In this document: positions 6,808 through 24,674 of the stretch, in pieces
Layout of the letters: each line of letters begins with the position of its first letter
Numbering within the stretch: the stretch's first letter is position 1
Origin: Roseivivax sp. GX 12232
GTDB lineage: Bacteria; Pseudomonadota; Alphaproteobacteria; Rhodobacterales; Rhodobacteraceae
DNA: 64,000 nt
Reading direction: 5' to 3'
Assembly (NCBI RefSeq): GCF_021272185.1
Contig: NZ_JAJSEC010000001.1
Location: forward strand, 310,001-374,000
Program-made: the position numbers and the translations under genes
Notes under the pieces: generated by a model
The model's input: the letters and a program-made list of their open reading frames with translations, nothing else
Told to the model about the DNA's origin: nothing
The model's database searches: none

Positions 6808-6926
6808 ACTCTCGCTTCCTGATTGTTGCACTGCGAACTAGCAGCTTCAAAACTTGAACGGAAGATACCGTCATATTGTCAAAAGAACAAAAAAAGCTTG
6901 CGGACTCGCGTTCGGGTGATCCATAT

Positions 6927-8311: not shown

Positions 8312-8328
8312 CCCCTCCCCTGATCGGC

Positions 8329-8359: not shown

Positions 8360-8386
8360 GTTCTGCCCTTTTCCTCAAGGACTGCC

Positions 8387-9286
8387 ATGACCGCCATCGC
8401 CACTGATCCGCCGATGCTCGAGAGGCGCTACGCCCGGCTGGGCGTCGTGCTCATCGCGCCGACGATCCTCGTCTTCTCGCTGGTGATCGTCTATCCGCTT
8501 CTCGCGGCGATCTATCTGAGCCTCTTCTCGATCTACACCCCGACGCTCCAGGGCGAGTTCGTGGGTCTGGACAATTACGCCAAGCTCCTGACGCAGAAGG
8601 CCTTCTGGTCCTCGCTCGGGACCACGCTGATCTGGACGGTGGGCACGCTGAGCCTGCAGATCCTGGCCGGCGTCGGCCTGGCGCTGCTTCTGCACCAGAA
8701 CATCTGGTTCCGCAGCCTGGCGCGGTCGCTGGTGCTGTTTCCCTATTTCCTGTCGACGGTGGTCGCGGTGCTGGTCTGGCGCTGGCTCTTCAACGACCTC
8801 TACGGCGCGCTGAACCACGGGCTTATGCAGCTCGGGGTGATCGACATGCCGCTCGACTGGCTGGGCTCGATGCCCAACGCGATGATCGGGGTGATCCTGG
8901 TCGGCGCCTGGAAATACTTCCCCTTCGTGGTGATCGCCGTCCTGGCGCGGCTGCAGACCATCCCCGAACACCTCTACGAGGCCGCCCGCATCGACGGCGC
9001 GGGCCCGGTGTCGCGCTTCTTCGACGTGACCCTGCCGCAGCTCCGATCGGTCTTGACGGTGATCATCCTTCTGCGCGCGATCTGGGACTTCAAGGAGTTC
9101 GACCTGCTGTATCTGCTGACCGGCGGCGGGCCCGTCACCTCGACGCAGACGCTCTCGCTCCTGGTCTACCAGGAAGCCTTCGGGCTCAACCGCATGGGCC
9201 AGGCGGCGGCCTATTCGGTCGGCATGATGCTGGTGATGCTGGTCTTCATGATCCTCTACATCCGCCGCACCGGACGGGAGAGCTGA
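8387..9286 (+). CDS. ABC transporter permease, sugar type (MalF/UgpA-like)
   Basis: A 299-aa inner-membrane permease with about six hydrophobic segments and the cytoplasmic EAA loop EAARIDGAGPVSRFF that contacts the ATPase. Starts at an ATG 75 nt after the binding-protein gene with AAGGAC upstream, and ends one base before the next permease. The short periplasmic N-terminus and length fit the UgpA/MalF subclass of carbohydrate importers. It forms the heterodimeric channel with the following gene. Confidence 0.9.
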   Translation: MTAIATDPPMLERRYARLGVVLIAPTILVFSLVIVYPLLAAIYLSLFSIYTPTLQGEFVGLDNYAKLLTQKAFWSSLGTTLIWTVGTLSLQILAGVGLALLLHQNIWFRSLARSLVLFPYFLSTVVAVLVWRWLFNDLYGALNHGLMQLGVIDMPLDWLGSMPNAMIGVILVGAWKYFPFVVIAVLARLQTIPEHLYEAARIDGAGPVSRFFDVTLPQLRSVLTVIILLRAIWDFKEFDLLYLLTGGGPVTSTQTLSLLVYQEAFGLNRMGQAAAYSVGMMLVMLVFMILYIRRTGRES

Positions 9287-9287
9287 C

Positions 9288-10115
9288 ATGCCCCGCGCAA
9301 GACATCTGATCCTGAACCTGGTCACCTGGTCGCTGGTGCTGCTGATCGCCTTCCCGCTGTTCTGGATGATCATCACCTCGGTGAAGCCGCAGTCCGAGCT
9401 CTTCCGCATCCCGCCGACCTGGCTGCCCGAAACCGTCACCTTCGAGCACTACTGGCGCCTTTTGAGCGAGACGCCCTTCCTGCGCTACTTCCGCAACTCG
9501 GTGGTGCTGGCGACCACGACGACGCTCTTCGTGGTCTCGCTGGGCACGCTCGGGGCCTATTCGCTGGTGCGCTTCAACTACCGCGGCCGCGAGACGCTGG
9601 CGATGCTGGTGCTCTTCACCTACCTCCTGCCCTCGGTGGTGCTGATCATCCCGCTTTACATGATGATGGTCGCCATCGGCCTGTCGAACACGCTGATGAG
9701 CCTGATCCTGGCGCATACCACCTTCGCGCTGCCCTACGCGCTGTGGCTGCTGCGCTCCTTCATGGAGGGCGTGCCGAAGGACCTCGAGTCCGCGGCGCTC
9801 GTCGACGGCGCGACCCGCATGGGCGCCTTTCGCGACGTGATCCTGCCGCAGCTCCTGCCCGGCATCATCTCGACCGCGCTCTTCACCTTCATCCTGTCGT
9901 GGAACGAATACCTCTACGCGCTGGTGCTGGTGAACTCCGACGCGGTCGCGCCGCTGACCACCGGCGTCATGTCGATGCTGATCTCCGCCTTCAACATCGA
10001 ATGGTCCCTACTCATGGCGGCGTCGGTGATGATGAGCCTGCCGCTCATCGTCGTCTTCGCCTTCCTGCAAAGCTATCTGACCTCCGGCTTCGGTGCCGGC
10101 GGGGTCAAAGGATAA
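9288..10115 (+). CDS. ABC transporter permease, sugar type (MalG/UgpE-like)
   Basis: The second permease, 275 aa with about six membrane segments. The EAA-loop equivalent is ESAALVDGATRMGAF, and the end is the usual short cytoplasmic tail. It begins one base after the previous stop, with GGGAG within the end of that gene serving as ribosome-binding site, so the two subunits are translationally coupled. Function: partner half-channel of the importer. Confidence 0.9.
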   Translation: MPRARHLILNLVTWSLVLLIAFPLFWMIITSVKPQSELFRIPPTWLPETVTFEHYWRLLSETPFLRYFRNSVVLATTTTLFVVSLGTLGAYSLVRFNYRGRETLAMLVLFTYLLPSVVLIIPLYMMMVAIGLSNTLMSLILAHTTFALPYALWLLRSFMEGVPKDLESAALVDGATRMGAFRDVILPQLLPGIISTALFTFILSWNEYLYALVLVNSDAVAPLTTGVMSMLISAFNIEWSLLMAASVMMSLPLIVVFAFLQSYLTSGFGAGGVKG

Positions 10116-10127
10116 AGGACGGAAACC

Positions 10128-11234
10128 TTGGCCAACGTCACCCTTAGCAAAGTTCGCAAGAGCTTCGGCGCCTTCACCGCGCTGGAGGAGCTGAACATGG
10201 AGATCGCCGCGGGCGAGTTCATCGCCCTGCTGGGCCCCTCGGGCTGCGGCAAGTCGACGACGCTGCGCATCCTCGCCGGGCTGGAGTTCCCGACCTCGGG
10301 CGAGATCTCGATCGACGACCGCCGCGTGAACGACCTGCCCCCGGGCAAGCGCGACATCGCCATGGTGTTCCAGAGCTATGCGCTCTACCCGCATATGACC
10401 GTCGCGGAGAACATCGCCTATCCCCTGAAGAAACACGGGGTGAAGCGTCCCGAGCGCGAGGCCGCGGTGCGCCAGGCCGCCGAGCTTCTGCAGCTCGAGC
10501 CGCTGCTCGACCGCAAGCCCAAGCAGCTTTCGGGCGGCCAGCAGCAGCGCGTGGCCCTGGGCCGGGCGCTGGTCCGCGACCCCAAGGTCTTCCTGCTCGA
10601 CGAGCCCCTGTCGAACCTCGACGCCAAGCTGCGCAGCTACATGCGCGCCGAGCTGATCGAGCTGCACCGCCGGCTCGGCAAGACCATGGTCTATGTCACC
10701 CACGACCAGCTCGAGGCGATGACCATGGCGACCCGCATCGCGGTCATGCACGGCGGCCGGCTGCAGCAGTTCGACACCCCCGAGATGGTCTACAACTGCC
10801 CCGCCAACCGCTTCGTGGCGAGCTTCATCGGCACGCCTTCGATGAACCAGCTCGAAGGCCGGGTCGAGGGCGGCGCGTTCATCCTCGGCCCCGACCGGAT
10901 CGCCATCGACCGCACGATGTTCCGCGACGACCTGGCCGACGGGCCGGCGGTGCTGGGCATCCGCCCGGAATACATCCAGATCGGCCGCGGGCCGCTCCAG
11001 GCCACGGTGCGGCTGGCCGAGAACACCGGACACGAGACCATCCTGACGCTGGAGCTCTCCGAAGGGAGCCGGATCACCGCCCGGGTCGAGGCCGGCAGCC
11101 GTCACAAGGTCGGCCAGGTCCTGAGCCTCGGGCTGCAGAACGACGCGGTGCATCTGTTCGAGCCCGGCGAGAACGGCGCGCGGCTCAACAAGGAACAGAC
11201 CGGCGCCGCCGTCATCCCGATGCGCGCGCAATGA
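10128..11234 (+). CDS. ABC transporter ATP-binding protein (UgpC/MalK type)
   Basis: A 368-aa ATPase with Walker A GPSGCGKST, signature LSGGQQQR, Walker B FLLDEPLSNLD and H-loop VTHDQ. A C-terminal OB/TOBE domain (about residues 240-360) is typical of CUT1 importers. The only start in register with the family N-terminus is TTG 10128, a weak start that may reduce its expression. The stop overlaps an ATG of the next frame, but the aminotransferase more likely starts 30 nt further on. It energises the importer encoded by the three preceding genes. Confidence 0.9.
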   Translation: MANVTLSKVRKSFGAFTALEELNMEIAAGEFIALLGPSGCGKSTTLRILAGLEFPTSGEISIDDRRVNDLPPGKRDIAMVFQSYALYPHMTVAENIAYPLKKHGVKRPEREAAVRQAAELLQLEPLLDRKPKQLSGGQQQRVALGRALVRDPKVFLLDEPLSNLDAKLRSYMRAELIELHRRLGKTMVYVTHDQLEAMTMATRIAVMHGGRLQQFDTPEMVYNCPANRFVASFIGTPSMNQLEGRVEGGAFILGPDRIAIDRTMFRDDLADGPAVLGIRPEYIQIGRGPLQATVRLAENTGHETILTLELSEGSRITARVEAGSRHKVGQVLSLGLQNDAVHLFEPGENGARLNKEQTGAAVIPMRAQ

Positions 11235-11263
11235 CCGGCCGAGACCTGCGAGGAGAGAGGCAG

Positions 11264-12667
11264 ATGAGCGACACCCGCGACCTTGACCGGTCCTATGTCT
11301 TCCACCCCTTCACCGCCGCCAATGCCCACGAGCAGAGCGGCAGCGTGATGATGGCCCGCGCCGCCGAGGGCTGCTGGATCACCGACGACACCGGCAAGCG
11401 CTACCTCGACGCGCTGGCCGGGCTCTGGTGCGTGAACGCGGGCTACGGCCGGGCGCGGATCGCCGATGCGCTGGCCGACCAGGCCCGCGGGCTGAGCTAT
11501 TTCCACGGCTTCAGCTCCATGGCGACCGAACCCGCGGCGCAGCTTGCCGAACGGGTCATGGCCAAGGCGCCCCAGGGCTTTTCGAAGATCTTCTTCGGCA
11601 GCTCGGGCTCGGACGCCAATGACACCCAGGCCAAGCTGGTCTGGTATTACAACAACGCCCGCGACCTGCCCGAGAAGAAGAAGATCATCTCGCGCGACCG
11701 GGGTTATCACGGCGTGACGGTGATGACCGGCGGGCTGACCGGGCTGCCCGGGCTGCACGCGGGCTTCGATCTGCCGCTGCCGATGATCCGCCACGTCTCG
11801 GCGCCGCACAACCTCTGGACGCGCCTGCCCGAAGAGGACGACGCCGCCTTCACCGCGCGGCTCGCGCAGGAGCTCGAGGACCTGATCCTGGCCGAGGGCC
11901 CCGAGACCGTCGGCGCCTTCATCGCCGAGCCGGTCATGGGCGCGGGCGGCGTCATCGTCCCGCCCGAGGGTTATTTCCCCGCCATCCGCGAGGTGCTCGA
12001 CCGCCACGACGTGCTGCTGATCGCCGACGAGGTGATCACCGGCTTCGGGCGGCTCGGCACCTGGTTCGGCTCCGAGGCCATGGCGGTCCAGCCCGACCTC
12101 ATGTCGGTCGCCAAGGGCATCACATCGGGTTACGCGCCGCTCTCGGGCGTGCTCGTGGGCGAGAAGGTCTGGCGGGTGATCTCCGGGGCGGCCGCGTCGA
12201 AATACGGCGTCTTCGGGCATGGCTACACCTATACCGCCCACCCGGTCATGGCCGCCGCGGCGCTCGCCAACCTCGACATCATCGAGGAAGAGGGGCTGGT
12301 GACCCGCGCGGGCGAGATGGGCGCCTATCTCAACGCCACCCTGAAGACCGCCTTCGCCGATCTGCCGATCGCCGCCGAAGTGCGCGGCAAGGGGCTGATG
12401 GCGGCGGTGGAGTTTGCCCGACCCACGCCCGAGGGCTGGCGCCGCTTCGATCCCGCGCTGGGGGTCGCCCAGCGGATCACCCGCCGCGCACTCGAGGACG
12501 GGGTGATCTCGCGGGCGCTGCCCAATGGCGACGCGGTCTCCTTCTCGCCGCCCTTCGTCATCACCCACGAGGAGATCGACCTGGTCGTCTCGACCCTGCG
12601 CAAGGCCGCCGAGGCCGTCCATGCAAGCCTGCGCGCCGAAGACGCGCTCGACACAACGTCAGATTGA
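11264..12667 (+). CDS. Class III pyridoxal-phosphate aminotransferase (omega-amino acid:pyruvate type)
   Basis: A 467-aa PLP fold-type I transaminase. The start 11264 is preferred over 11231 because GGAGAGAGG precedes it. The cofactor Asp/Val stretch LLIADEVITGFGR and the Schiff-base Lys284 in SVAKGITSGY are clear, as is the N-terminal FHPFTAAN typical of beta-alanine/omega-amino acid transaminases. It would transfer an amino group from an omega-amino acid or amine to pyruvate, giving a semialdehyde or ketone. It is placed between importer genes and a DapA-type lyase, suggesting the imported molecule carries a primary amine or yields one. Confidence 0.9.
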   Translation: MSDTRDLDRSYVFHPFTAANAHEQSGSVMMARAAEGCWITDDTGKRYLDALAGLWCVNAGYGRARIADALADQARGLSYFHGFSSMATEPAAQLAERVMAKAPQGFSKIFFGSSGSDANDTQAKLVWYYNNARDLPEKKKIISRDRGYHGVTVMTGGLTGLPGLHAGFDLPLPMIRHVSAPHNLWTRLPEEDDAAFTARLAQELEDLILAEGPETVGAFIAEPVMGAGGVIVPPEGYFPAIREVLDRHDVLLIADEVITGFGRLGTWFGSEAMAVQPDLMSVAKGITSGYAPLSGVLVGEKVWRVISGAAASKYGVFGHGYTYTAHPVMAAAALANLDIIEEEGLVTRAGEMGAYLNATLKTAFADLPIAAEVRGKGLMAAVEFARPTPEGWRRFDPALGVAQRITRRALEDGVISRALPNGDAVSFSPPFVITHEEIDLVVSTLRKAAEAVHASLRAEDALDTTSD

Positions 12668-12669
12668 GG

Positions 12670-13596
12670 ATGAGCCCCTTGGACAGACACAGCATCGACT
12701 GGACGGGCGCCATGCCCGCCATCACCACGCCCTTCACCGCCGAAGGCGCCGTGGATCACGAGGCGCTCGCAGCCAACATCCGCCGCCAGATGAAGGCCGG
12801 GGCGACCGGCGTCGTCGCCGCCGGCTGCACCGGCGAGTTCTGGAGCCTCACCCACGAGGAACGCGCCGCCATCGGCGCCACCGCGCGCAAGGCGGTGGGC
12901 GAGAAGGGCACCGTGATCCTCGGCGCCGCGGCGATCACCCCGGGCGACGTGCTCTCGGGGCTGGAGCTGGCGCATCAGGCCGGCTGCGACGGCGCGCTGG
13001 TCATGCCGCCCTTCTTCGCGCATCTCTCGCGCGCCGAGGTGCTGGCGCATTACCGCAGCGTGGCCGAGGCGACGCCGCTGCCGATCATGCTCTACAACAT
13101 CCCCGGCAACGCCGGGAACGCGCTGACGCCGGATCTTGTCGACGAGCTGGCCGACCTCGAGCCGGTGGTGGCGATCAAGGAAAGCTCGGGCGACTGGCTC
13201 AACTTCCACCGCACGCTCAGCGTCGCGGGCGACCGGCTGCGGGTCTTCTGCGGCCCCTCCTCGACCATCGGGGTGCCCGCGATCGAGGCCGGCTGCGACG
13301 GGCTGATCGACTGTTTCCCCAACGTCTGGCACCGGCTTCTCGACCTCTGGAGCCTGGTCAAGCGCGGTGAGAGCCGCACCGCCTGGGAGATCCAGGCCAG
13401 CGCCCAGGAGATGACCACCCTCTTCACCACCGGCGGGCGGATGCTCTATCCTGCCACCAAGGCCGCGATGGACTACCTGGGGCTGCCCGGCGGCGGCGCG
13501 CCGCGGCCACCGCTGCAACCCCTGACCGGCGCGCCCCTGAAGGAGCTCGAGCGCGAGCTGGACCGTATCCTCGAGCGGAAGGACACCGCGGCCTGA
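12670..13596 (+). CDS. Dihydrodipicolinate synthase / N-acetylneuraminate lyase family protein
   Basis: A 308-aa TIM-barrel class I aldolase/lyase. The Schiff-base Lys170 is in AIKESSGD and the proton-relay Tyr142 in LYNIPGN; CTGEFW replaces the usual GTTGE substrate-carboxylate loop. Start ATG 12670 follows the aminotransferase stop by two bases. As a catabolic DapA paralogue it could cleave or dehydrate a 2-keto acid, such as a keto-deoxy sugar acid or 4-hydroxy-2-keto acid. True DapA function is unlikely because it sits in a catabolic operon and the GTTGE Thr pair is altered (GCTGEF). Confidence 0.87.
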   Translation: MSPLDRHSIDWTGAMPAITTPFTAEGAVDHEALAANIRRQMKAGATGVVAAGCTGEFWSLTHEERAAIGATARKAVGEKGTVILGAAAITPGDVLSGLELAHQAGCDGALVMPPFFAHLSRAEVLAHYRSVAEATPLPIMLYNIPGNAGNALTPDLVDELADLEPVVAIKESSGDWLNFHRTLSVAGDRLRVFCGPSSTIGVPAIEAGCDGLIDCFPNVWHRLLDLWSLVKRGESRTAWEIQASAQEMTTLFTTGGRMLYPATKAAMDYLGLPGGGAPRPPLQPLTGAPLKELERELDRILERKDTAA

Positions 13597-13660: not shown

Positions 13661-14443
13661 ATGGATCTGGGCTTGAAAGGCCGCACCGCCATCGTGAGCG
13701 CGGCAAGCAAGGGGCTGGGCCGCGCCTGCGCCATGTCGCTGGCGCATGAGGGCGTGAACCTGGTGCTGAACGCGCGTTCGGCCGACGCGCTCGAGGCCAC
13801 CGCCGAGGAGATCCGCGCCGCCACCGGCGTCGAGGTCACCGCCGTGCCCGCCGATTTCAACACCGACGAGGGCCGCGCCGAGATCCTCGCCAAGGCCGGG
13901 GAGCCCGACATCCTGGTCTGCAACCCCGGCGTGCGGCAGATCCCCGGCGAGTTCGAGGACTGGACCCGCGCCGATTGGGACGAATGGTTCGAGGTGCACT
14001 TCTTCTCCTCGCTGCAGATGATGACCTCGGTGCTGCCGGGGATGCGGGCGCGCAAGTTCGGCCGGGTGGTCAACATCTCGGTGAGCTTCATCAAGTTCCC
14101 GCAGCCGCATTTCGCCCACAGCCATTCGGCGCGGCTGGCGCTTTCGGGGGCCATCGCCTCGATGGTCAAGGAGACGGTGCGCGACAACGTGACGATGAAC
14201 ACCGTCTGCCCGGGCTTCTTCGACACCGACGCGCTGCACACCAACCTGCACAACCACGCCCGGCGCGGCGACACCACCTACGAGGCCATCGTCGAGAACC
14301 GCCTGCAAAGCGTGCCCGCGGGCCGCTTCGCCGATCCCAAGGAATGCGGTGACCTGGTGGCCTTCCTCTGCTCGGACCAGGCGGGCTTCATCGTCGGGCA
14401 GAACATCATCAACGACGGCGGCGTCTACCAGGGGCTGTTCTGA
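13661..14443 (+). CDS. Atypical SDR family protein with SxxxR in place of YxxxK
   Basis: A 260-aa Rossmann protein (SAASKGLG at residues 13-20) resembling FabG-like short-chain dehydrogenases but with altered chemistry residues. NNAG is CNPG (87-90), and the Tyr/Lys pair aligns with Ser154 and Arg158 in SHSARLALSG. The upstream Ser (ISVS, 140-142) is kept. A similar S-N-V-A-R motif is known in the putative beta-ketoacyl-reductase-like subgroup of which Thermotoga TM0325 is an example, so this looks inherited rather than a sequencing error. AGGGAG precedes the ATG. It may use another mechanism or act as a binding partner of the SDR encoded next to it. Confidence 0.82.
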   Translation: MDLGLKGRTAIVSAASKGLGRACAMSLAHEGVNLVLNARSADALEATAEEIRAATGVEVTAVPADFNTDEGRAEILAKAGEPDILVCNPGVRQIPGEFEDWTRADWDEWFEVHFFSSLQMMTSVLPGMRARKFGRVVNISVSFIKFPQPHFAHSHSARLALSGAIASMVKETVRDNVTMNTVCPGFFDTDALHTNLHNHARRGDTTYEAIVENRLQSVPAGRFADPKECGDLVAFLCSDQAGFIVGQNIINDGGVYQGLF

Positions 14444-15159
14444 TGGAGGCGGACCGGCTTGTCCTGGTCTCGGGCGGCGCCCGGGGCCTGGGGGCGGCGC
14501 TGGTCCGGCGCTGCCTCGAGGACGGCCACCGCGTCTCGGTCGGCGCGCGCCGGCCCGAGGCGGTCGCGGAGGCCTTCGCCGATGTCCCGCCCGAGCGGCT
14601 CCGGGCCTTCCGCTTCGACGCCGAGGCGCCCGAGACCGCCGAGGCCTGGGTCGCCGAGACCGCGCGCGCGATGGGCGCGCCCGACGCGCTGATCAACAAC
14701 GCCGGCATCCTGCGCATGGTGGATTTCGAGCGCGGCTCGGAAGAGGACCTCGACGCGCTCTGGCGGGTCAACGTGAAGGGCCCCTTCCGGCTGATCCGCG
14801 CGGCGCTGCCGCATCTTCGCGCCTCGGGGCGCGGGCGGGTGGTGAACATCGCCTCGACCGACGCCAAGCGCTACCGCGACGCCTCGGTGTCGCTGGGTTA
14901 CGTGATGACCAAACAGGCGCTCCTGGCGATGACCCACGCGGTGCGCTTCGCCGGCTGGGACGAGGGGCTGCGCGGCACCGCGATCTGCCCCGGCGCCATC
15001 GACACCGAGATGATCGACGGCATCCCCGGGGTGACCCCCAAGGCCCAGCGGCTGAGCCCCGAGGACGTGGCCGAAATCGCCTCGCTGGTGCTGCGCCTGC
15101 CGAACCAGGCGAGCCTGCCCGAGATCGTCGCCAACACGCGGCTGGAAAGCACGATCTGA
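14443..15159 (+). CDS. SDR family oxidoreductase
   Basis: A 238-aa short-chain dehydrogenase with complete catalytic residues: SGGARGLG (10-17), NNAG (85-88), Ser138 and YVMTK (Tyr153, Lys157). Its ATG shares a base with the preceding TGA, so it is tightly coupled to the SxxxR SDR. It is the last gene of the rightward catabolic operon and is followed by a hairpin terminator. It probably oxidises a hydroxy acid or sugar-acid intermediate. The two adjacent SDRs, one intact and one atypical, may form a complex. Confidence 0.87.
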   Translation: MEADRLVLVSGGARGLGAALVRRCLEDGHRVSVGARRPEAVAEAFADVPPERLRAFRFDAEAPETAEAWVAETARAMGAPDALINNAGILRMVDFERGSEEDLDALWRVNVKGPFRLIRAALPHLRASGRGRVVNIASTDAKRYRDASVSLGYVMTKQALLAMTHAVRFAGWDEGLRGTAICPGAIDTEMIDGIPGVTPKAQRLSPEDVAEIASLVLRLPNQASLPEIVANTRLESTI

Positions 15160-15457: not shown

Positions 15458-17005
15458 CTATTCCGCCGCCATCCGCTGGCCGTGCTTGCGCTCGTAGGCG
15501 CGCCAGGTCGTGGCCCATTGGTCGGGCTCGTCGAGCGCCGTGGTGAGTTGCCGGATCGGCGCGTTGTGCGGCGCGCCCTTGACCACGTCGGGGGTGGCAT
15601 AGGCCTCCTCGATCACATGCTCGAGCACGTCGATCCAGTAGTCGATGTCCTCCTTCGACCAAAGCTCCCCGGCCTCGGGCGTGAAGGGCTCCGGCACCAG
15701 GAGCGGCTCGTGACTAAGCCAGAGCGCGTCGATGCCGAAATCGGTCATCCGCATGGAGATCTCGAAGATCGAACAGCCGGTCTCGGCGGCGACCTGTTCC
15801 ACCGAATGCCGCGTCATCTCCATGCGCGGCGCGTCGATGCCGGGGTTCGAGCGCGAGACCCCGCGCACCTGCGCGAGCCGGTGGTCCATGTAGTTGTTGG
15901 CCAGGACCGAGAGGTCCGCCGCCTCGCGCAGCCCCTCGGCGCCCATGGCGCGCGCCCAGGCGTAAGCCTTGAGCACCTGCGGCGCGTTGCCCCAGAACTC
16001 GCGCACCCGCCCGATGCTCTCGGGCCGGTCGTCGTCGAGCCGGTAGCGTGCGCCCTCCTTGACGACCAGCGGCCCCGGCAGGAAGGGCACCAGGTGCTCG
16101 GCGCAGCCATAGGCGCCGACCGCGGGCCCGCCGCCGCCCTTGGGCGCGCCGAAGGTCTTGTGCAGCATGTACATGCAGGCGTCGAAGCCCAGCTCGCGGG
16201 CGCGCAGCCGGGTCATCACCCCGTTGAAATTGGCATGATCGTAGAAGCACAGGCCCCCGGCCGCATGCACGATGTCCACCCATTCCTTAATGTCGGGGTT
16301 GTAGATGCCCATGTCGTCGGGGTTGTTCACCATGAGCGCCGCGGTGCGCGGGCCGACCACGGACTTCAGCTGCTCGACGGACGGATAGCCGTTCTCCTCG
16401 AGGCTGAGGGTGATCACCTCGAAGCCCGCGGTATTGGCGGTGGCCGGCGAACAGGGGTGGGTCTGGATCGTGGTGATGATCTGGTCGCGCTGCTCCAGCT
16501 CGCCGCGGCTGGCGTGATAGGCGCGGGTGACGCAGGCATGGGTATAGGCGGCATCCGCCCCGCCGCCCGCTTGGAAGACGAACTGGTCCATGCCCGAGAC
16601 CTCGCAGAGGAAGTCGCTGAAGTTGTCGTAAAGCTCCAGCACCCCCTGGAGCGTGTCGGGATGCTGCAGCGGATGCAGGTCCGCCAGGTGCTTCAGCGCC
16701 GCGCGCTCGCCGATCCTGGGGTTGTATTTCATCGTGCAGGTCCCGAAGAGCGACACGCCCATCATGCCCAGCGTCATCTGCGACAGGTGCAGGTAATGGC
16801 GCAGCGCGTCGTGTTCGGTGATCTCGGGCAGCGCCGGCGCGGTCTTTCGCGCGGCGCCCTTGGGCAGCTCGGGCGTGGGCGCCTCCTCGAAGACGACGCC
16901 GCGGCGGCCGGGGCAGCCCATCTGGGTGACCACCGGCTCGGGCCAGCGGGCGGCGCGATAGCCTTCGAACTGCGCCTTGCTGCGCTTCGCGATCGGTGCG
17001 GTCAT
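15458..17005 (-). CDS. Divergent glycine dehydrogenase (decarboxylating) subunit 2-like PLP protein
   Basis: 515 aa, homologous along its length to GcvPB, the PLP-carrying half of the glycine cleavage P-protein. FGTCTMKYN (87-95) matches the GSCTMK motif, and LHKTF (281-285) holds the PLP Lys283. Several active-site signatures differ from true GcvPB. PHGGGGPG is APKGGGGPA, with Lys289 replacing a conserved His. The SAHGTNPASA segment is THPCSPATA (182-190), and NSGAQGEY is AGGGADAAY. The start overlaps the preceding subunit gene by 4 nt. No H-, T- or L-protein gene is nearby. It probably decarboxylates or otherwise activates an amino acid other than glycine; this is inference. Confidence 0.82.
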   Translation of the reverse strand: MTAPIAKRSKAQFEGYRAARWPEPVVTQMGCPGRRGVVFEEAPTPELPKGAARKTAPALPEITEHDALRHYLHLSQMTLGMMGVSLFGTCTMKYNPRIGERAALKHLADLHPLQHPDTLQGVLELYDNFSDFLCEVSGMDQFVFQAGGGADAAYTHACVTRAYHASRGELEQRDQIITTIQTHPCSPATANTAGFEVITLSLEENGYPSVEQLKSVVGPRTAALMVNNPDDMGIYNPDIKEWVDIVHAAGGLCFYDHANFNGVMTRLRARELGFDACMYMLHKTFGAPKGGGGPAVGAYGCAEHLVPFLPGPLVVKEGARYRLDDDRPESIGRVREFWGNAPQVLKAYAWARAMGAEGLREAADLSVLANNYMDHRLAQVRGVSRSNPGIDAPRMEMTRHSVEQVAAETGCSIFEISMRMTDFGIDALWLSHEPLLVPEPFTPEAGELWSKEDIDYWIDVLEHVIEEAYATPDVVKGAPHNAPIRQLTTALDEPDQWATTWRAYERKHGQRMAAE

Positions 17006-18390
17006 GCCGTGATCTCCTTCAGTGCTGCGACCAGACGGTCGATGTCGTCCTCGCTGTGGGTTTCGGTCACGCAGAGCAGCATCGCCTCGTCGGGGACGCC
17101 AGGCTCTCCGGTGATGTCCTTGCCGCCGAAGATGCCGCGCGCGCGCAGCGCGGTGTTGACCGCCGAGACCTGGGCGCTGTCGAAAGTGACGACGAACTCC
17201 TTGAAACAGGGGCGCGACAGGTCGACCGAGAGCCCCGGCAGGGCGTCGATCCTGCGGGCGGCCGCCTGCGCGCGGGCCATGATCAGCCGGCCGATCTCGG
17301 CAAAGCCCTCGGGGCCCATGGCGGCCATGTAGGTGGCATTGGCCAGCGCCCAGAGGTAGACCGAGTTGCCGGTCCAGTCCTTGCCCTCGTCGCGCATCCC
17401 GTAGCTGCTCTGGTGGAAGAGCGTCAGGCCGAAGCCGAACTCGTCCTCGCCCGAGGTCTCCGAGATCGAGACGTTCAGCGTGTTGTATTCCCGCGCGTAG
17501 CGCTCCTCGTCGGGGCTGGCGATGAAGCCGCCGACGCCGCCGCCGGCGTACATATGCACGCCCAGCGGCTGGGTCGGGCCGACGGCGATGGTCGCGCCAT
17601 AGGCGCCCGGCGCCTCGAGGAGGCCCAGCGACAGGGGATCGACGCCGACGATGGCCTCGGCGCCCGCCGCCCGCGCCAGGGCGCAGAGCCCGCCCGGGTC
17701 GGCCTCGATCACGCCGTGGTAGCTGGGCGTCTCGACATAAAGCGCGGCGATGCTGTCATCGAGCTTGGCCTTCAGGTCGGCCCTATCGAGGCGGCCGTCG
17801 GCGCCGGTGCGGACCGTCACGATCTCGATGTGGCGCGCCATCTCGCGCGGGGCGCAGTAGTTCCGCAGGACCGAGAGCCGCTCGGGGTCCATGACATCGG
17901 CGACCAAGACCCGGCGGCGGCCGGTCATCCGCGACGCCATGCGCACCGCGTGGCCGATCGCGCAGCCCCAGGAGTAGACCGGCAGGCCCACGAAATCCAT
18001 GTCCACCAGCGCGCCGATCTGGCTGGTGAACTCGAACCAGGCCTGGTTGCGCCCGTGGTCCGAGGTCGGCGAGCCGAAGACCGAGGTCTGCCATTCGTAG
18101 CGCCCGACCACCTCGTCGCAGATCGCCGGCACGTAATGCGGCCAGGCGCCCGCGCCGAGGAAGGACAGGTTCTCCGCGGTGCCGCTGTTCCTGGCCATCA
18201 TGTCGTCGAGATGCCGCGCCAGCGCCACCTCGGAGGCAAGCTGCTTCGGCAGGGTCATCTCGCCCTTGTAGAGATGATCCTCGGGGATCTGCGCGAAAAG
18301 CGCGTCGATGGAGTTCACCCCGAGCGCGGACAGCATCTGCTGCTTCACCTCGGGGACGGAATTCGCCATCCAGGGATGGGCTTGCGTCAT
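17002..18390 (-). CDS. Divergent glycine dehydrogenase (decarboxylating) subunit 1-like protein
   Basis: 462 aa, homologous to GcvPA, which forms a heterotetramer with GcvPB. FLGAG (77-81) and the general fold are retained. The family's TPYQPEVSQG loop is instead SVFGSPTSDHG (103-113), and the conserved REKATSNICT-type segment is replaced by GKDWTGNSVYLW. Both loops shape the active site in known P-proteins, so substrate use is likely changed in parallel with the partner subunit. It is the middle gene of a three-gene operon: AcoX-like, subunit 1, subunit 2. A good start ATG is preceded by GAGGAGAC. Confidence 0.82.
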   Translation of the reverse strand: MTQAHPWMANSVPEVKQQMLSALGVNSIDALFAQIPEDHLYKGEMTLPKQLASEVALARHLDDMMARNSGTAENLSFLGAGAWPHYVPAICDEVVGRYEWQTSVFGSPTSDHGRNQAWFEFTSQIGALVDMDFVGLPVYSWGCAIGHAVRMASRMTGRRRVLVADVMDPERLSVLRNYCAPREMARHIEIVTVRTGADGRLDRADLKAKLDDSIAALYVETPSYHGVIEADPGGLCALARAAGAEAIVGVDPLSLGLLEAPGAYGATIAVGPTQPLGVHMYAGGGVGGFIASPDEERYAREYNTLNVSISETSGEDEFGFGLTLFHQSSYGMRDEGKDWTGNSVYLWALANATYMAAMGPEGFAEIGRLIMARAQAAARRIDALPGLSVDLSRPCFKEFVVTFDSAQVSAVNTALRARGIFGGKDITGEPGVPDEAMLLCVTETHSEDDIDRLVAALKEITA

Positions 18391-18419
18391 GTCGGTCTCC
18401 TCACTTGCACGGGGATGGC

Positions 18420-19541
18420 TCAGGCGACGACCCGGACGACCTGCTTGCGCCCGGGTCCGGTGGTGATCGGCCAGTAGCCGGAAAGCTGGGCGTCGAGCGC
18501 CGGATCGCCGGTGTCGATGGTCAGTTCGGGCGGGGTCAGCCCGGCGAGTTTCTCGGCGGAGCAGACCACGTCGATGGGCGGGCGGCCGGCGCGTTCCAGC
18601 ACCCGGGCCGAGATCTGCTGGTTGCCGCGCCCGAGGACGAAGCCCTGCCCGCCGACCACGGTCAGCACCACGCGCACCGGGCGGCCCGGGGGGATGCGCT
18701 CCAGGAGGTCGTCCTCGGAGAGGTCGCGGGCGGTGATGCGCGGGCCTTCCGCCAGGTCCACGCCGAGAAGCGTGCCGCCGCCGATCCGCGCCTTCAGCGC
18801 CGCCATGGTGGTGCCGGGGCCGAGGATATAAAGCGTCTCCTCGACCATCCCCGCCACGTAGCCCGCCAGCGCCGCGTCGAGATCGGCCAGCATGTCGCCG
18901 CCGCCGGCCTTGGGGTTCTGCCGCTCGCCGCGGGTCGCGGGCGTGCGGGCGACGCTGTAGATCCTGGCCGAGAGCTGGCCCGCGCGGCGGGCCTCCTCGT
19001 CGATGTCGAGGATCTCCACGAGGTCGGTGCGCGGGGTCCGGGCGGCGAGGAACTCCGCCGCGATCCGGCCCGCGCGTTCGGGGCTGCGGGCGAAGACGCC
19101 GGAGTGCATCTTCACGCCCGCCGGGATGCCGATGACCGGCAGGCCCGCGCGGTTGGCCTCGGCCACGTCGCGCGCGGTGCCGTCGCCGCCGGCAAAGAGG
19201 ATCAGGTCGACGCGCTCGGCCATGGCGGCGACCGCGGCAAGGGTCTCGGCGCGGCCTTGTGCGGTGGGGCCGAGGTCGAGGGTTTCGACCTCCCCGTCCA
19301 GCGCCGCGCGGGTCTCGGGCGGCAGCGGCCCGGCGAGGATTGGCGCCTCCGAAGCGCGCCGGAAGGCCGCCAGCGCCCGGGCCGCGCGCGCACCGGCCTG
19401 GCCCGCGCGTCCCGCCGCCTCGGCGCGCGCGGCGATGTCGGGGGCATCGCTACCCTTCTCGCCCATCGGCCCGCCGAGCCCCGCCACCGGGTTCACCAGC
19501 AGCCCGAGGCGTCGGGGCCTTTTCAGATCGTCTTCCGGCAT
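18420..19541 (-). CDS. ATP-NAD kinase / AcoX family protein
   Basis: 373 aa. The N-terminus RLGLLVNPVAGLGG and GGDGT (118-122) are diagnostic of the NAD-kinase/diacylglycerol-kinase fold. The remainder matches the COG3199/AcoX group, known from acetoin clusters but without a firmly established reaction. It heads the operon with the two P-protein-like subunits, 29 nt upstream of subunit 1. The start was set at ATG 19541 because codons further upstream read into intergenic sequence. No ribosome-binding site is visible and operator site C almost touches the ATG, so the message may be leaderless. It may phosphorylate a nucleotide cofactor or a substrate. Confidence 0.78.
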   Translation of the reverse strand: MPEDDLKRPRRLGLLVNPVAGLGGPMGEKGSDAPDIAARAEAAGRAGQAGARAARALAAFRRASEAPILAGPLPPETRAALDGEVETLDLGPTAQGRAETLAAVAAMAERVDLILFAGGDGTARDVAEANRAGLPVIGIPAGVKMHSGVFARSPERAGRIAAEFLAARTPRTDLVEILDIDEEARRAGQLSARIYSVARTPATRGERQNPKAGGGDMLADLDAALAGYVAGMVEETLYILGPGTTMAALKARIGGGTLLGVDLAEGPRITARDLSEDDLLERIPPGRPVRVVLTVVGGQGFVLGRGNQQISARVLERAGRPPIDVVCSAEKLAGLTPPELTIDTGDPALDAQLSGYWPITTGPGRKQVVRVVA

Positions 19542-19542: not shown

Positions 19543-19569
19543 TTCGCACATTTGTTCGCATGTTGGAAC
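19543..19569. promoter_or_regulatory. Putative IclR operator, site C
   Basis: TTCGCACATTTGTTCG followed by a degenerate third half (GGAAC). It abuts the start codon of the AcoX-like gene, so binding there would block transcription start directly. It matches sites A and B in the first two half sites. Confidence 0.55.
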
Positions 19570-19859
19570 GATGCACCTTTGGCGGACCTCTGGCAAGCCG
19601 AAGTTGTGCGGGGAGCGGTGGAAAGCTTGGGGTGTCGGGAGGTGCGCGGACGGGTTAGGCGGTGTGTGGGGCTGGGAAGAGCGGATTGAGTGGTTGGCTT
19701 GGCGGAGGTCAGGGCCGCACTGGGCTTGCATTTGCCCATTGGCTCTACGGGGAGCAGCGGGCCTGCCTCCTGTTAGCCTGCCACCGCGCCCCGCCCGTTT
19801 TGACCACACCGACATCACGGAAACGCTGGGCCAAAGCGACCCGTCCGAAGCCCGCACGT

Positions 19860-20208: not shown

Positions 20209-21774
20209 TTACTCGGCGGTGAAATACTTGAACTTCACCTGGTCGTCCGGGTCGACCGCGGCGCCGACGGAATTGGTCATCGCCCAGTTCAGCACCTGGT
20301 GGTGGATCGGCAGATAGGCCACGTCGGCCTTGGCCATCTCCCACATCGCGGCGATCATCTCGTCGCGCTTGCCCAGGTCGACCTCGGAGGCGATCGCCTT
20401 GGTCATCTCGTCAAGCTTGGGGTTGGAGTAGCGGGTGCCGTTCCAGGTCCCGTAGAGCTCTTCCTTGGTGTGGTAGAGGAAGTTGAAGATATACTCGGAA
20501 TCGTAGCTCGGCACGCCCCAGCCCAGCATGTAGAAATCCGACTCCAGCCCGTTGACCAGCGGGAAGTGCTGGGCCTTGGGCTTGGCGTCGAGGTTCACCG
20601 TCACGCCGATCCGCGCCAGCATGCCGACGGCGGCCTGGCAGATGCCCTCATCGTTGATGTAGCGGTCGTTCGGACAGTCGAGCTGCACGGTGAAGCCTTC
20701 GCCCCAGCCGGCCTCTTCCATCAGCGCCTGGGCCGCCTCGACATCGGTCGAGACCTCGTTCAGCGCCTCGTTCCAGCCGTTCACGAAGGGCGGCATGATG
20801 ACCCCCGCGGGGATCGACTGGCCGCGCATCACCACCTGTTTGATCGCGTCGCGGTCGAGCGCCATGTTCATCGCCTGGCGCACCCGGAGGTCGGCCAGCG
20901 GGTTCTCGCCCTCGCCATGCACCAGGGTGTCGCCGGTGTTGAGCCCGAAGAAGATCACCCGGTTCTGCGGCGAGCTGACGATCTTGAGGTTCTCGGCATC
21001 GGTGATCCGCTGGAGATCCTGCACCGGCACGTCCTGGATGAAGTCCACATCCCCCGACAGAAGCGCCGCGACGCGGGTCGACTGGTTCTGGATCGGGGTG
21101 AAATCCACGCGGTCGTAGGGCAGCGGAAACTCCTCGGCGCCCCAGTAGCCGTCGAATTTCTCCATCACCGTGCGGGCATCGCCCTCGCGGCTGACCAGGC
21201 GGTAGGGGCCGGTGCCGTTCACGTTGACCGAGGCGAAGGTGGTCTCGCCGCCCTCGACGTCCTGGACCTCGACCGAGCCGTTGGCCTCGGACCATTCCTT
21301 GTCCATTACCAGGATGTTCACGATGGCCGCGGGCAGGAGCGGATTCGGGCCCTTGGTCTTGATCGCCACCTCGTGCTCGCCCAGCGCCTCGACGCTCTCG
21401 ACCGAGGAGATGATGCCCTTCATGTCGCTGTTCTCGGAGAGCGCGCGGTTGAAGGAGAAGACCACGTCCTCGGCGGTGAAGGCGGCGCCGTCGTGGAAGC
21501 TCACGCCCTCGCGCAGCTTGAAGATCCAGGTCTCGGGCGAGTCGGGGCTGACGGCCCATGCGGTGGCCAGCGCCGGGACGATCTCGCCGTCGGGATGGCG
21601 CAGGATCAGCGGCTCCATCATCTGGTGCTGCACCGCGATGGTCACGCCTTCGTTCTGGGCATGCGGGTCGAGCGTCAGCGCGTCACCGGCGCGCGCCCAG
21701 CGGATGGTTTCGGCCGAGGCGGCCCCGGCAATCGCCAGCGTCAGCGCGCTGGCCGTGAGAAAGGCATGTTTCAA
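20209..21774 (-). CDS. ABC transporter substrate-binding protein, family 5 (peptide/opine/nickel type), orphan
   Basis: 521-aa periplasmic binding protein of the DppA/OppA family. A cleavable signal peptide covers residues 1-21 (ending ASA before ETIRW). The conserved opening ALTLDPHAQNEG and the TWIFKLREGVSFHDG motif are present. No permease or ATPase genes adjoin it, and a terminator follows directly, so it must share a transporter encoded elsewhere or act as a sensor. Its promoter has a weaker copy of the IclR operator (21812-21838), linking it to the same regulon. Likely ligands are short peptides or N-substituted amino acids, fitting the two peptidase/amidase genes upstream of it. Confidence 0.9.
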   Translation of the reverse strand: MKHAFLTASALTLAIAGAASAETIRWARAGDALTLDPHAQNEGVTIAVQHQMMEPLILRHPDGEIVPALATAWAVSPDSPETWIFKLREGVSFHDGAAFTAEDVVFSFNRALSENSDMKGIISSVESVEALGEHEVAIKTKGPNPLLPAAIVNILVMDKEWSEANGSVEVQDVEGGETTFASVNVNGTGPYRLVSREGDARTVMEKFDGYWGAEEFPLPYDRVDFTPIQNQSTRVAALLSGDVDFIQDVPVQDLQRITDAENLKIVSSPQNRVIFFGLNTGDTLVHGEGENPLADLRVRQAMNMALDRDAIKQVVMRGQSIPAGVIMPPFVNGWNEALNEVSTDVEAAQALMEEAGWGEGFTVQLDCPNDRYINDEGICQAAVGMLARIGVTVNLDAKPKAQHFPLVNGLESDFYMLGWGVPSYDSEYIFNFLYHTKEELYGTWNGTRYSNPKLDEMTKAIASEVDLGKRDEMIAAMWEMAKADVAYLPIHHQVLNWAMTNSVGAAVDPDDQVKFKYFTAE

Positions 21775-21811
21775 ATTTCCGGATCTCCCTGTTGCGTTCG
21801 GCCAGCCGGAA

Positions 21812-21838
21812 AAGTCACTGAGCGAACTTTTGTCCGAA
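21812..21838. promoter_or_regulatory. Putative IclR operator, site E (weak)
   Basis: On the minus strand TTCGGACAAAAGTTCG matches the first two half sites of the shared motif. The third half is not recognisable. It is 37 nt upstream of the binding-protein start. Confidence 0.4.
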
Positions 21839-21923
21839 TGACTAAACGCAACAAAGATGTGCTTGGCAAGATGCTTTTTGCCGGCCCGTCTGGCCGCCCC
21901 GCTGGGCCCGCCCCGCCCGGGGC

Positions 21924-23009
21924 TCAGACCACCGCCAGCGCGCGCGGCAGCTCCGACAGGATCTCGGGCCCCTCGGCGCGCAGGATCACGATCTCCTCGA
22001 GCCGGATGCCGAAGCGGCCGGGAATATAGATGCCCGGTTCGATCGAGAAGACCATGCCTTCCTCCAGCACCTCCTCTGAGGCCGAGGTCAGATAGGGCGG
22101 CTCATGCACCTCGAGCCCCAGCCCGTGGCCGGTGCGATGCACGAAATATTCCCCGTAGCCCGCCGCCTCGATGACGCCCCGGGCGGCATCGTCGACCTCA
22201 TGGGCGCGCGCGCCGGGGCGGGCCGCCTTCATGCCGGCCTCGAGCGCCGCCTCGACCACGGCATGCACCTCGTCGTAGCCCTCGGGGGCCGCGCCCACCG
22301 CGCCCATCCGGGTCATGTCGCTGGGCCAACCGGCCAGTTTCGCGCCGATGTCCAGCACCACGCTGTCGCCGGATTCCAGCTTGCGGCTGCCGGTGCTGTG
22401 GTGCGGATAAGCCCCGTTCGGCCCCGAGGCGCAGAGAGCGAAGGCCACCTGCGCGCCCTGGGCGGCGAAGGCATCCTGGATCGCCTGGGCGACCTCCTTT
22501 TCGGTCACGCCGGGGCGCAGCGCGGCGATCCCCGCTTGCATCGCCTTGTCGTTGGCCCGGGCCGAGGCCTTGAGCGCGGCGTATTCCTCGGCGTCCTTGA
22601 CCATGCGCAGCTTGCCGACCAGCGCGCCCGCGTAGACATGCCGCGCGCCCGGCAGCGCCGCCAGCACCGGCAGGGAGAAATCGGTGCGCATGGTCTCGTC
22701 CAGCGCCACGACCTCGGGCGCGCCCAGCCTGTCGAGCGCCCGGGCCAGCGCCGCCTCGGGCCCCTCCTCGTCGCGCCAGGTCTCAAGCGGCACCGAGGTG
22801 GCCGCGCCGAACTGCTCGGCATTGACCGAGGGCACCAGCGCCAGGGCCTCCTCTGCGCCGATCAGCAGCAACGTCGGACGTTCGTCGGGATGCGGGTGCC
22901 AATCGAGCACCCAGTGCATATGCGCGCCGGGCCCCAGGGCCACGAGCCCCACGCCCTGGGCCTTCATCTCGGCGCGGATGCGCGCCAGCTTCTCGGTCTC
23001 GCGGCTCAT
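21924..23009 (-). CDS. M24 family metallopeptidase (Xaa-Pro dipeptidase / creatinase fold)
   Basis: 361 aa, with start ATG 23009 chosen for its AAGGAGAG ribosome-binding site. The N-terminal creatinase-type domain (about 1-130) precedes the pita-bread catalytic domain. All five dinuclear metal ligands appear present: Asp in VLDIG, Asp in SDMTR, His in GHGLGLEVHEPP, Glu in SIEPGIYI and Glu in RLEEIV. It would cleave Xaa-Pro or a related N-substituted amide such as creatine-like compounds. It sits between the family-5 binding protein and the M20 amidohydrolase on the same strand, which suggests hydrolysis of the imported compound in the cytosol. Confidence 0.87.
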   Translation of the reverse strand: MSRETEKLARIRAEMKAQGVGLVALGPGAHMHWVLDWHPHPDERPTLLLIGAEEALALVPSVNAEQFGAATSVPLETWRDEEGPEAALARALDRLGAPEVVALDETMRTDFSLPVLAALPGARHVYAGALVGKLRMVKDAEEYAALKASARANDKAMQAGIAALRPGVTEKEVAQAIQDAFAAQGAQVAFALCASGPNGAYPHHSTGSRKLESGDSVVLDIGAKLAGWPSDMTRMGAVGAAPEGYDEVHAVVEAALEAGMKAARPGARAHEVDDAARGVIEAAGYGEYFVHRTGHGLGLEVHEPPYLTSASEEVLEEGMVFSIEPGIYIPGRFGIRLEEIVILRAEGPEILSELPRALAVV

Positions 23010-23143
23010 GTGATCGGCTCTCCTTGTCTCTGCTCGCCGGGGCGGGCGCATCCGGGCGCCGCGCCGCGGGGCTGTCGTTCTCTCGGGGACCACGCGGCTC
23101 CCATCTTGTCCTCATGCGCGCGCCGGGGCGCTGCGGCTGTGCC

Positions 23144-24550
23144 TCAGGGCACCCGCGGTTCGGCCTCGGGCGTCAGCGGGCTCTCGTAGGGCTCCCGCGC
23201 CAGCCGCGCGTCGAAATCCGCCCGCGCCTCGGCAAGGTGGCGCGGATCGCGCAGAAGGTCGAGCGCCGCGCCCGCCAGCGCCTTGGAGACCTGCACCATC
23301 TGCTTGTGCGCCGCCGGCGTCTTGCCCTGGGCGGTGATCTGCCAGGTGTGCCCCGGCGTGCCGATCGCATAAGTCGCGCCCCCAAGCTGCGCGAAGGGCA
23401 CCTTCCAGCTCACGTCGCCGAGGTCGGTCGAGCCCAGCATCGGCACGCCGCGGGTCTCGTAGGGCACCACGAAGTCGCACATGCTCTTGTCGGAAGGGGT
23501 GACGCCGAAGGCCAGGTAGGCCGCCTCGATGTCCTCCTCGGTCAGGGTCGCCTGGATGCGCTTGCCGTAGGCGTGATCCTCTTCCGTCAGCTCCGCCGGG
23601 CCCGCCGCCTCGAAGTGGCGCTGCAGGAGCTTGTAGAGCGGCGGGTTGTCCATGAGGTCCGACATGGCCGAGATGAAATGCATCTCGACCTTGGTTTCGG
23701 TCATCATCGCCGCGCCTTCGGCGACGCGGCGGACGCGCTCGAGCACCTTCTGCATGTCGCGCCGCTTCAGCGCCCGGACCGAGTAGCGCACCACCGCCTG
23801 GCTCTGCACCACGTTGGGCGCGATGCCGCCGGCGTCGAGCAGCGCGTAATGGATGCGGGCGTCCTGCGGGACGTGTTCGCGCAGGTAGTTGACGCCGACG
23901 TTCATCAGCTCCACCGCGTCGAGCGCGCTGCGCCCGAGATGCGGGGCGACGGCCGCATGGGCGGTGCGCCCGGTGAAGCGGAAGTCGACCATGGCGACCG
24001 CCAGCGAGAGCGGCGGGATGATCCCGTTGAAGGGCATCGGGTGCCAGGAGAGCGCCGCGTCGACATCGTCGAAGACGCCCTCGCGCACCATGAAGGTCTT
24101 GGCCGCGCCGCCCTCCTCGGCGGGGCAGCCGTAGTAGCGCACCCGCCCGGGCAGGTCATGCGCCTCGAGGAAGTCCTTGACCGCGGTGGCCGCCAGGAGC
24201 GCGCCCGCGCCGAGGAGGTTGTGCCCGCAGCCGTGGCCCGGCCCGCCCGCCTCCTCGGGTTCGGGGTGGTCGAGCCCGGCCTTCTGGCTGAGCCCCGGCA
24301 GGGCGTCGTATTCGCCGAGGATGGCGATCACCGGGCCCTCGCGGCCGGCCTCGCCCATGACCGCGGTGTCGATCCCGGCGAGGCCGGTGGTGACCGTGAA
24401 GCCCTCGGCCTCGAGCGCCGCGCGATGGGCCGCGGCCGAGCGGTGCTCCTGGTAGAGCGTCTCCGGCGTGGCCCAGACCTCGTCGCTGAGTTCGGTGAAC
24501 CGGGCCTTCTTGGCCTCCACATGATCCCAGATCGGCGCGTGGTTCTGCAT
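23144..24550 (-). CDS. M20 family amidohydrolase, AbgB-like
   Basis: 468 aa. Start ATG 24550 has AGGCAGG upstream; reading further upstream enters a repeat. GHGCGHNLLG (metal Cys/His), CPAEEGG (general-base Glu) and SWHPMP mark an M20D aminoacylase-type metal site. Length and sequence resemble AbgB, the p-aminobenzoyl-glutamate hydrolase subunit, but no AbgA or AbgT gene is present. It probably removes an acyl or aroyl group from an amino acid. Operator site D is about 100 nt upstream, linking it to the IclR regulon. Confidence 0.87.
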   Translation of the reverse strand: MQNHAPIWDHVEAKKARFTELSDEVWATPETLYQEHRSAAAHRAALEAEGFTVTTGLAGIDTAVMGEAGREGPVIAILGEYDALPGLSQKAGLDHPEPEEAGGPGHGCGHNLLGAGALLAATAVKDFLEAHDLPGRVRYYGCPAEEGGAAKTFMVREGVFDDVDAALSWHPMPFNGIIPPLSLAVAMVDFRFTGRTAHAAVAPHLGRSALDAVELMNVGVNYLREHVPQDARIHYALLDAGGIAPNVVQSQAVVRYSVRALKRRDMQKVLERVRRVAEGAAMMTETKVEMHFISAMSDLMDNPPLYKLLQRHFEAAGPAELTEEDHAYGKRIQATLTEEDIEAAYLAFGVTPSDKSMCDFVVPYETRGVPMLGSTDLGDVSWKVPFAQLGGATYAIGTPGHTWQITAQGKTPAAHKQMVQVSKALAGAALDLLRDPRHLAEARADFDARLAREPYESPLTPEAEPRVP

Positions 24551-24647
24551 GTCGGCCTGCCTTTTGGTTTTGTCTGCGTGGTTTAGGTGCGGGTGGGGCG
24601 CCCCGAGGGTCGGGACGCGAGGGGTGTTCGGCGGCACTATCGCCGGG

Positions 24648-24674
24648 CGCGAACGGATGTTCAATATACGAACA
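24648..24674. promoter_or_regulatory. Putative IclR operator, site D
   Basis: CGAACGGATGTTC followed by ATATACGAACA matches site B at 22 of 27 positions by eye, including the third half site. It lies upstream of the M20 amidohydrolase gene. Confidence 0.6.

Follow-up and report, generated by a model that had tools for sequence, protein, structure and literature searches.

Three adjacent genes in a 64,000-nucleotide stretch of Roseivivax sp. GX 12232 (contig NZ_JAJSEC010000001.1, positions 310,001 to 374,000; hereafter the window) encode what appears, judging by sequence, to be an enzyme of the P-protein family and its kinase-like partner; the enzyme goes by the annotation glycine dehydrogenase and is separate from the P-proteins of glycine cleavage. 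The cluster lies on the minus strand from 19541 to 15458 in the order NADK-like, GcvPA-like, GcvPB-like (Table 1), and the GcvPA-like and GcvPB-like genes overlap by 4 bases. A first-pass annotation of the window had placed both subunits of a glycine-decarboxylase-like enzyme and a third gene here, and all three open reading frames were confirmed on this strand. Because the two P-like proteins score modestly above the NCBIfam GcvPA and GcvPB cut-offs, automatic annotation turns them into a glycine dehydrogenase, as seen in the plasmid relatives; the name carried by annotated relatives is "aminomethyl-transferring glycine dehydrogenase". A search of the host genome for a separate canonical system found a single-chain gcvP of the ordinary type (about C1:661.5-664.1 kb), adjoined by the sole GcvH match of the host (C1:664276-664629), so the GcvPA/GcvPB-like pair is not the only P-protein of the host. 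The ordinary NAD kinase of the host is encoded on contig C22.

Relatives were collected from eight plasmid records and from a scan of one genome per species, which found 369 relatives, the best 80 of the 369 loci being kept; with the window these make up the clade set of 89 GcvPB sequences and loci used below. GcvPB-like identity is 60-88% within the best 80 of the 369 loci and about 35% to ordinary GcvPB. In a tree of the 89 clade sequences and six ordinary ones, the clade stood apart with a support of 0.965 and a stem of 2.06 substitutions per site. The first-pass annotation had proposed to test for a clade with conserved APKGGGG and linked AcoX genes; a distinct clade was recovered, its active-site substitutions being coordinated and conserved and its linked gene kinase-like. 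The eight plasmid records match at 54-85%, the lowest being a GcvPB relative in the haloarchaeon Natronosalvus (54%), and the next matches fall to about 35%. Going by organism names, we take the best 80 loci to span alpha-, beta- and gammaproteobacteria, Actinomycetota including Solirubrobacterales, and Pedobacter. Within these groups the clade is sparse: at E values up to 1e-120 it was found in 2 of 300 genomes of the Caballeronia order and 17 of 232 of the Solirubrobacter order, the starting genome being counted in both. Three of those order-level matches have 46-48% identity and look like a sister group of the clade; two carry an NADK-like gene beside the pair, and for the third none was called within 11 kb of sequence. 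Among 147 genomes around the host, close GcvPB-like relatives (at least 64% identity) occur in four, host included (G000, G010, G033 and G048), and the remaining long matches listed are of the ordinary P-protein kind (27-37%), with the exception of broken clade-like fragments in G022 (C15:130913-131797; 39-54% identity to clade GcvPB, two of three with stops), a decayed copy. Each of the eight congeners G001-G008 gave one match, of the ordinary kind. One locus (L049), whose GcvPB is 85% identical to that of the window, has a neighbourhood matching roseobacters under a record titled Enemella evansiae, an actinobacterium; it reflects either contamination or recent transfer.

The residues expected to hold pyridoxal phosphate (PLP) are retained throughout the clade. 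Lys283, within HKTF, and its partners His183 and Asp256 are present in 89/89 clade GcvPB sequences, as are Ala258 and Asn261, and Asn259 in 88/89. A second set of residues, Lys289, Arg394, Glu396, Arg399 and His432, is equally invariant (89/89) and differs from the ordinary enzymes, six of which served for this comparison. Lys289 occupies the His position of PHGGGGPG, a motif found in 17 of 18 ordinary GcvPB sequences; position 184 is Pro in 88 and Ala in one in place of the ordinary Gly, and position 185 is Cys in 86 and Ser in three. The retained Lys283 and the motifs GAPKGGGGPA and THPCSPATA, all reported at first pass, can be read directly in the window sequence. The ordinary comparison set consisted of 18 GcvPB and 25 GcvPA sequences, 8 and 1 of 26 having been dropped by a length filter or for lack of a match; clade alignments A3, A4 and A5 held 44, 43 and 42 rows chosen from 56, 59 and 71 usable loci plus the window. 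HGTNPA is present in all 18 ordinary GcvPB sequences and TPYQ[PA]E in all 25 ordinary GcvPA sequences, whereas TPYQ occurs in none of the 42 clade GcvPA sequences, in line with the reported replacement of TPYQPE in subunit 1. REKATSN occurs in 22 of 25 ordinary and 0 of 42 clade GcvPA sequences; here the earlier description needs correction, since the REKATSNICT segment is replaced rather than gone and aligns with RDEGKDWTGNS, a segment conserved in the clade as R..G.DW[TI]G (42/42). The clade thus lacks the ordinary two-subunit motif set (TPYQPE, PHGGGGPG, HGTNPA, REKATSN), and ordinary two-subunit GcvPA/GcvPB proteins of the same class, checked for the clade's substitutions, are without them. 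With the PLP residues and the new set invariant in 89/89, the pattern resembles that of a functional enzyme whose pocket has changed more than that of decay, which is also how the first-pass annotation had read it. The structure model of the GcvPB-like subunit (pLDDT 70.6) was too poor for use.

Ordinary P-protein decarboxylates glycine onto the lipoyl-bearing H-protein, GcvH. GcvH was found in 0 of the 89 clade loci, compared with 14 of 27 control loci having short flanks only, the host's own gcvH locus among them. The earlier remark that no H-, T- or L-protein gene accompanies the pair therefore holds for GcvH, T- and L-proteins not having been searched for. At the genome level, GcvH and GDC-P were searched in the genomes of 50 of the 80 triad loci. 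GcvH was found in 47 of the 50 and not in the isolate Histidinibacterium aquaticum (L051) or two metagenome bins (L093 and L061). Each of these three genomes has a single GDC-P match, the triad's own, and no ordinary GcvP; serine hydroxymethyltransferase, used to spot-check completeness, was found in all three. In the genus of L051, GcvH is lacking in two of five genomes, the second of which has no triad and contains a 4.04 Mb contig. A genome in which no lipoyl carrier protein was found can still keep the pair. Compared with the Thermus GcvPA/GcvPB P-protein (1wyt), the clade shares the sequence family, two overlapping subunit genes and the PLP lysine with its His and Asp neighbours, but has only about 35% identity, other conserved motifs in place of TPYQPE, PHGGGGPG, AHGTNPA and REKATSN, no GcvH found nearby, a kinase-like partner, and an isolate host without detectable GcvH.

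The partner gene almost always accompanies the pair. A GcvPA-like gene was found in 78 of the 80 genome loci and an NADK-like gene in 77, the remaining three (L065, L086 and L090) being cut by a contig end; while other neighbours vary, the kinase-like gene stays with PA and PB. In 64 loci it precedes the pair with the same orientation, the gap to GcvPA being 0-1456 bases (median 66.5); in 13 it is on the opposite strand, including one (L079) where it is about 3.6 kb beyond GcvPB. In Natronosalvus an NADK-like gene sits apart from the pair on the plasmid that carries both, surrounded by SDR, DHDPS-like, aspartate-aminotransferase-family and DUF885 genes, and in Peptoclostridium a relative of the protein overlaps a class I/II PLP-enzyme gene. 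The protein shares with NAD kinase a Pfam NAD_kinase domain above the cut-off and GGDGT, which is present in 44/44 aligned and 75/76 called members. The NAD-kinase substrate motif TP.GS, present in the host NAD kinase as TPAGSTAY, occurs in 0/44 and 0/76. The protein is therefore unlikely to be an NAD kinase and is better described as a GGDGT kinase-family protein. Its structure model was good (pLDDT 91.3), but Foldseek matches were weak (TM at most 0.26), the best being diacylglycerol and sphingosine kinases.

The first-pass annotation had called this gene AcoX/NAD-kinase-like. A kinase-family protein does lead the operon, but the likeness to AcoX is remote. Searching ten genomes with the family profile left three weak matches (1e-5, 9e-5 and 3e-4); named from their translations, the first two, from Cupriavidus and Solirubrobacter, are acoX genes with acoA immediately downstream, and the third looks like a lipid kinase. 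Profile-profile alignment with the two AcoX proteins covered 57 columns only, around GGDGT, with a probability of 92%. The protein shows no close sequence similarity to AcoX of acetoin operons, and GcvPA/GcvPB-like genes adjoin it instead of acetoin dehydrogenase. In both cases the gene for a GGDGT kinase-family protein immediately precedes those of a two-subunit, cofactor-dependent enzyme that cleaves C-C bonds; the partner of AcoX uses thiamine diphosphate, not PLP.

The genes around the triad (Table 1) fit amino-acid or peptide catabolism. Across the 89 loci, counted from heuristic gene calls in loci many of which are cut, SDR (65), DHDPS-like (50), DAO (48), IclR (48) and class III aminotransferase genes (31) recur most often, followed by 3HCDH (30), OYE (30), SoxA-like (28), SSADH (14), AKR-RidA (12) and AMP-binding ligase genes (8). 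From this recurrent set the window holds SDR, DHDPS-like, DAO, IclR, aminotransferase, 3HCDH and SoxA-like genes. A class III transaminase or DAO is found in 64 of the 89 loci, and one relative (Gemmobacter) has a primary-amine oxidase gene near the triad. The importer type differs among relatives (sugar-type, polar-amino-acid, peptide, TTT, APC). PDB sequence searches of four neighbours, two of which had no match, and annotation of the neighbours fixed no substrate.

Table 1. Features of the window, with positions counted from its first nucleotide
Feature	Position	Strand	Basis or remark
Exact palindrome TGTTC-N7-GAACA	1903..1919		Upstream of 3HCDH/SoxA-like/DAO genes
Exact palindrome TGTTC-N7-GAACA	6937..6953		Between IclR gene and sugar-type importer genes
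Degenerate operator-like site TGTTC-N8-GAACG	19553..19570		Just upstream of NADK-like start codon; weak on its own
Exact palindrome TGTTC-N7-GAACA	24658..24674		Upstream of M20/M24/peptide-binding-protein genes
OYE-like gene	127-897		Left window edge; recognised by eye
3-Hydroxyacyl-CoA-dehydrogenase-family (3HCDH) protein	1937..2872	plus	Clusters with relatives so named
SoxA-like FAD protein	2876..4534	plus	NCBIfam soxA subfamily 136 bits, far below cut-off; relative in L096 has Fer2_4 and Pyr_redox_2 domains
DAO-family FAD oxidase	4512..5648	plus	Pfam DAO in relatives in L096
IclR-family regulator, presumed owner of the palindromes	5956..6831	minus	Clusters with IclR genes annotated in plasmid relatives
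Sugar-type ABC importer (binding protein, two permeases, ATPase)	6974..11234	plus	Annotated relatives
Class III aminotransferase	11231..12667	plus	Pfam Aminotran_3 298 bits
DHDPS-family aldolase/lyase	12664..13596	plus	Pfam DHDPS 177 bits; separately, score below the dapA cut-off
Two SDR dehydrogenases	13661..15159	plus	
GcvPB-like subunit with PLP Lys283	15458..17005	minus	515 aa; NCBIfam GcvPB 485 bits (cut-off 441)
GcvPA-like subunit	17002..18390	minus	462 aa; Pfam GDC-P 155 bits; NCBIfam GcvPA 397 bits (cut-off 364)
NADK-like (GGDGT) kinase-family protein, first of three genes	18420..19541	minus	373 aa from the likely ATG (longest frame extends to 19739); Pfam NAD_kinase 60.5 bits (cut-off 25.5), NAD_kinase_C 41.4
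Peptide-type binding protein, M24 peptidase, M20 amidohydrolase-like peptidase	20209..24565	minus	

Some rarer neighbours were also seen. An aldo/keto reductase with a RidA (L-PSP) domain (L096:5856-7316) belongs to a cluster of 12 proteins from 12 of the 89 loci, usually beside the triad, and the called length of 11 of the 12 (486-642 aa) leaves room for the same fusion; a RidA domain near the triad hints at an imine or enamine intermediate. In one locus the gene directly after GcvPB (L107:11550-12593) is proline-racemase-like by its motif, and no such gene was found in the other 93 of the 94 loci covered by this search. Judged by sequence, other genes near the triad are MlrC-like and RidA-like (L069 and L081) and ureohydrolase-like (L069 and L093). 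A glyoxalase-family protein of about 310 aa is conserved near the triad in six loci (L078, L083, L088, L094, L098 and L102).

Since the pair persists where the lipoyl carrier is not found and forms a separate, kinase-linked family, it probably acts on another amino acid. The view taken at first pass, of an enzyme acting on an amino acid other than glycine, finds partial support in the distinct clade, the coordinated changes, the linked kinase-like gene and the canonical gcvP and gcvH elsewhere, with the reservations that the AcoX likeness is remote, REKATSNICT is replaced and the operator site at this operon is degenerate. Our preferred, still tentative, reading is that the pair is a PLP enzyme of amino-acid catabolism working without H-protein: it would decarboxylate some amino acid other than glycine, or break another of its C-alpha bonds, and so supply an enzyme that consumes amines. 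Such a two-subunit enzyme would no longer depend on a lipoyl H-protein and would have no role in glycine cleavage. Its substrate would enter the cell as the free amino acid or be liberated from peptides or amides; most likely it would lose its carboxyl group, presumably giving an amine, or have another C-alpha bond broken, and the product would pass to the class III transaminase, the DAO-type oxidase or the primary-amine oxidase of the one relative. The pair may need the GGDGT protein, and the steps may follow in this order under common regulation with the neighbours. We infer the release of an amine by a lipoyl-carrier-free PLP decarboxylase from the amine-consuming neighbours alone. Several points weigh against this picture. 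In the 47 hosts with GcvH, H-protein may come from elsewhere in the genome, and in the three without it draft assembly or lipoyl domains of other complexes may offer a way out; the count covers 50 of the 80 triad genomes. Neither a class III transaminase nor DAO is found in 25 of the 89 loci, and the alpha-carboxylate might be bound by the newly invariant Arg residues, a role that would speak against decarboxylation. Among substrates considered, a hydroxyproline-type pathway, threonine/aminoacetone, homoserine, opines, mycosporines and carnitine-like acids, none was singled out or adopted; the hydroxyproline-type guess drew on the SoxA-like/DAO and DHDPS-like neighbours and the proline-racemase-like gene in 1/94 loci.

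A different and less probable order of events is that the NADK-like protein places a phosphate on a hydroxyl group of a (hydroxylated) amino acid, after which the PLP pair would either decarboxylate this product or remove the phosphate by elimination. The near-constant, mostly upstream kinase-like gene and its conserved GGDGT favour this, as do the basic residues Lys289, Arg394 and Arg399, the SDR dehydrogenases, which fit a hydroxylated substrate, and the kinase relative that in Peptoclostridium overlaps a gene for a different PLP enzyme. The logic resembles that of PduX and CobD, a threonine kinase and a PLP decarboxylase, which belong to protein families other than the triad's. On the other hand, the basic residues are equally able to bind a carboxylate, and no reported kinase activity of any relative was found in the literature; our search of titles and abstract beginnings found no paper on the triad.

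We give somewhat less weight to the idea that the NADK-like protein catalyses no pathway step and serves to activate, load or repair the two-subunit, cofactor-dependent enzyme encoded with it, a role that AcoX may have towards acetoin dehydrogenase. The placement of acoX before acoA in Cupriavidus and Solirubrobacter is the same layout as kinase-PA-PB, and the retention of the kinase-like gene amid varying neighbours points the same way. PMC10943186 states that the P. putida acetoin dehydrogenase needs acoX to work in E. coli, the annotated pathway being complete without it, and also that AcoX was not found in some acetoin users, which counts against the idea; PMC10943186 and PMC3543383 disagree on whether acoX is present in Pelobacter carbinolicus. 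The remoteness of the AcoX similarity and the 13 loci with the gene on the other strand likewise argue against it. It is more doubtful still that AcoX and the NADK-like protein form one class of dedicated activators or cofactor kinases switching on two-subunit C-C cleaving enzymes, with thiamine diphosphate in one case and PLP in the other, and that the P-protein fold has yielded a widely scattered lipoyl-free PLP enzyme with an undescribed reaction.

A second glycine P-protein isoform drawing on the chromosomal H-protein is improbable: GcvH is present in 47 of 50 hosts and both proteins exceed the NCBIfam GcvP cut-offs, but the P-protein motifs have changed in a coordinated fashion, the neighbourhood is catabolic with importers and peptidases, and in a triad-bearing isolate genome neither GcvH nor ordinary GcvP was found. 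That the pair is a degenerate or regulatory paralogue and not an enzyme, as changes in several active-site loops might suggest, is hardly credible given the PLP lysine and partners invariant in 89/89 across several phyla and the same neighbours kept.

Whatever its reaction, the pair matters for annotation. At least 80 species-level genomes carry it, and annotated relatives bear the glycine dehydrogenase name, so that the capacity for glycine cleavage is credited too often and a step of catabolism overlooked. The triad also offers a second, independent system for testing the role of AcoX-type proteins, and a relative of P-protein that is apparently retained after loss of the lipoyl carrier.

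The first-pass annotation had further proposed that the operon shares an operator with importer and peptidase genes. Exact palindromes do precede the importer, peptidase and dehydrogenase genes (Table 1); with up to one mismatch allowed, TGTTC-N7-GAACA was found three times in the window against 0.41 expected, and three was reached in 4 of 100 shuffles. Only a degenerate site precedes the NADK-like gene, so a share of the triad operon in this putative operator is plausible. Among 47 IclR-bearing loci, 11 have one exact copy each (0.2 expected by mononucleotide shuffling) and 36 none, and in 7 of the 47 an exact copy lies near an importer binding-protein or IclR gene. The 41 loci without a called IclR hold 5 exact copies against 0.4 expected, and the tie between palindrome and IclR regulator is therefore suggestive only. 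An interspersed repeat of about 200 bases was also noticed at 19859-20052 and 24858-25051, with 88% identity over the first 86 bases and 80% over a further 100; a partial copy lies at 24740-24825 (64% identity), and the 29-base core of the repeat has six copies in the window at up to three mismatches, where none is expected.

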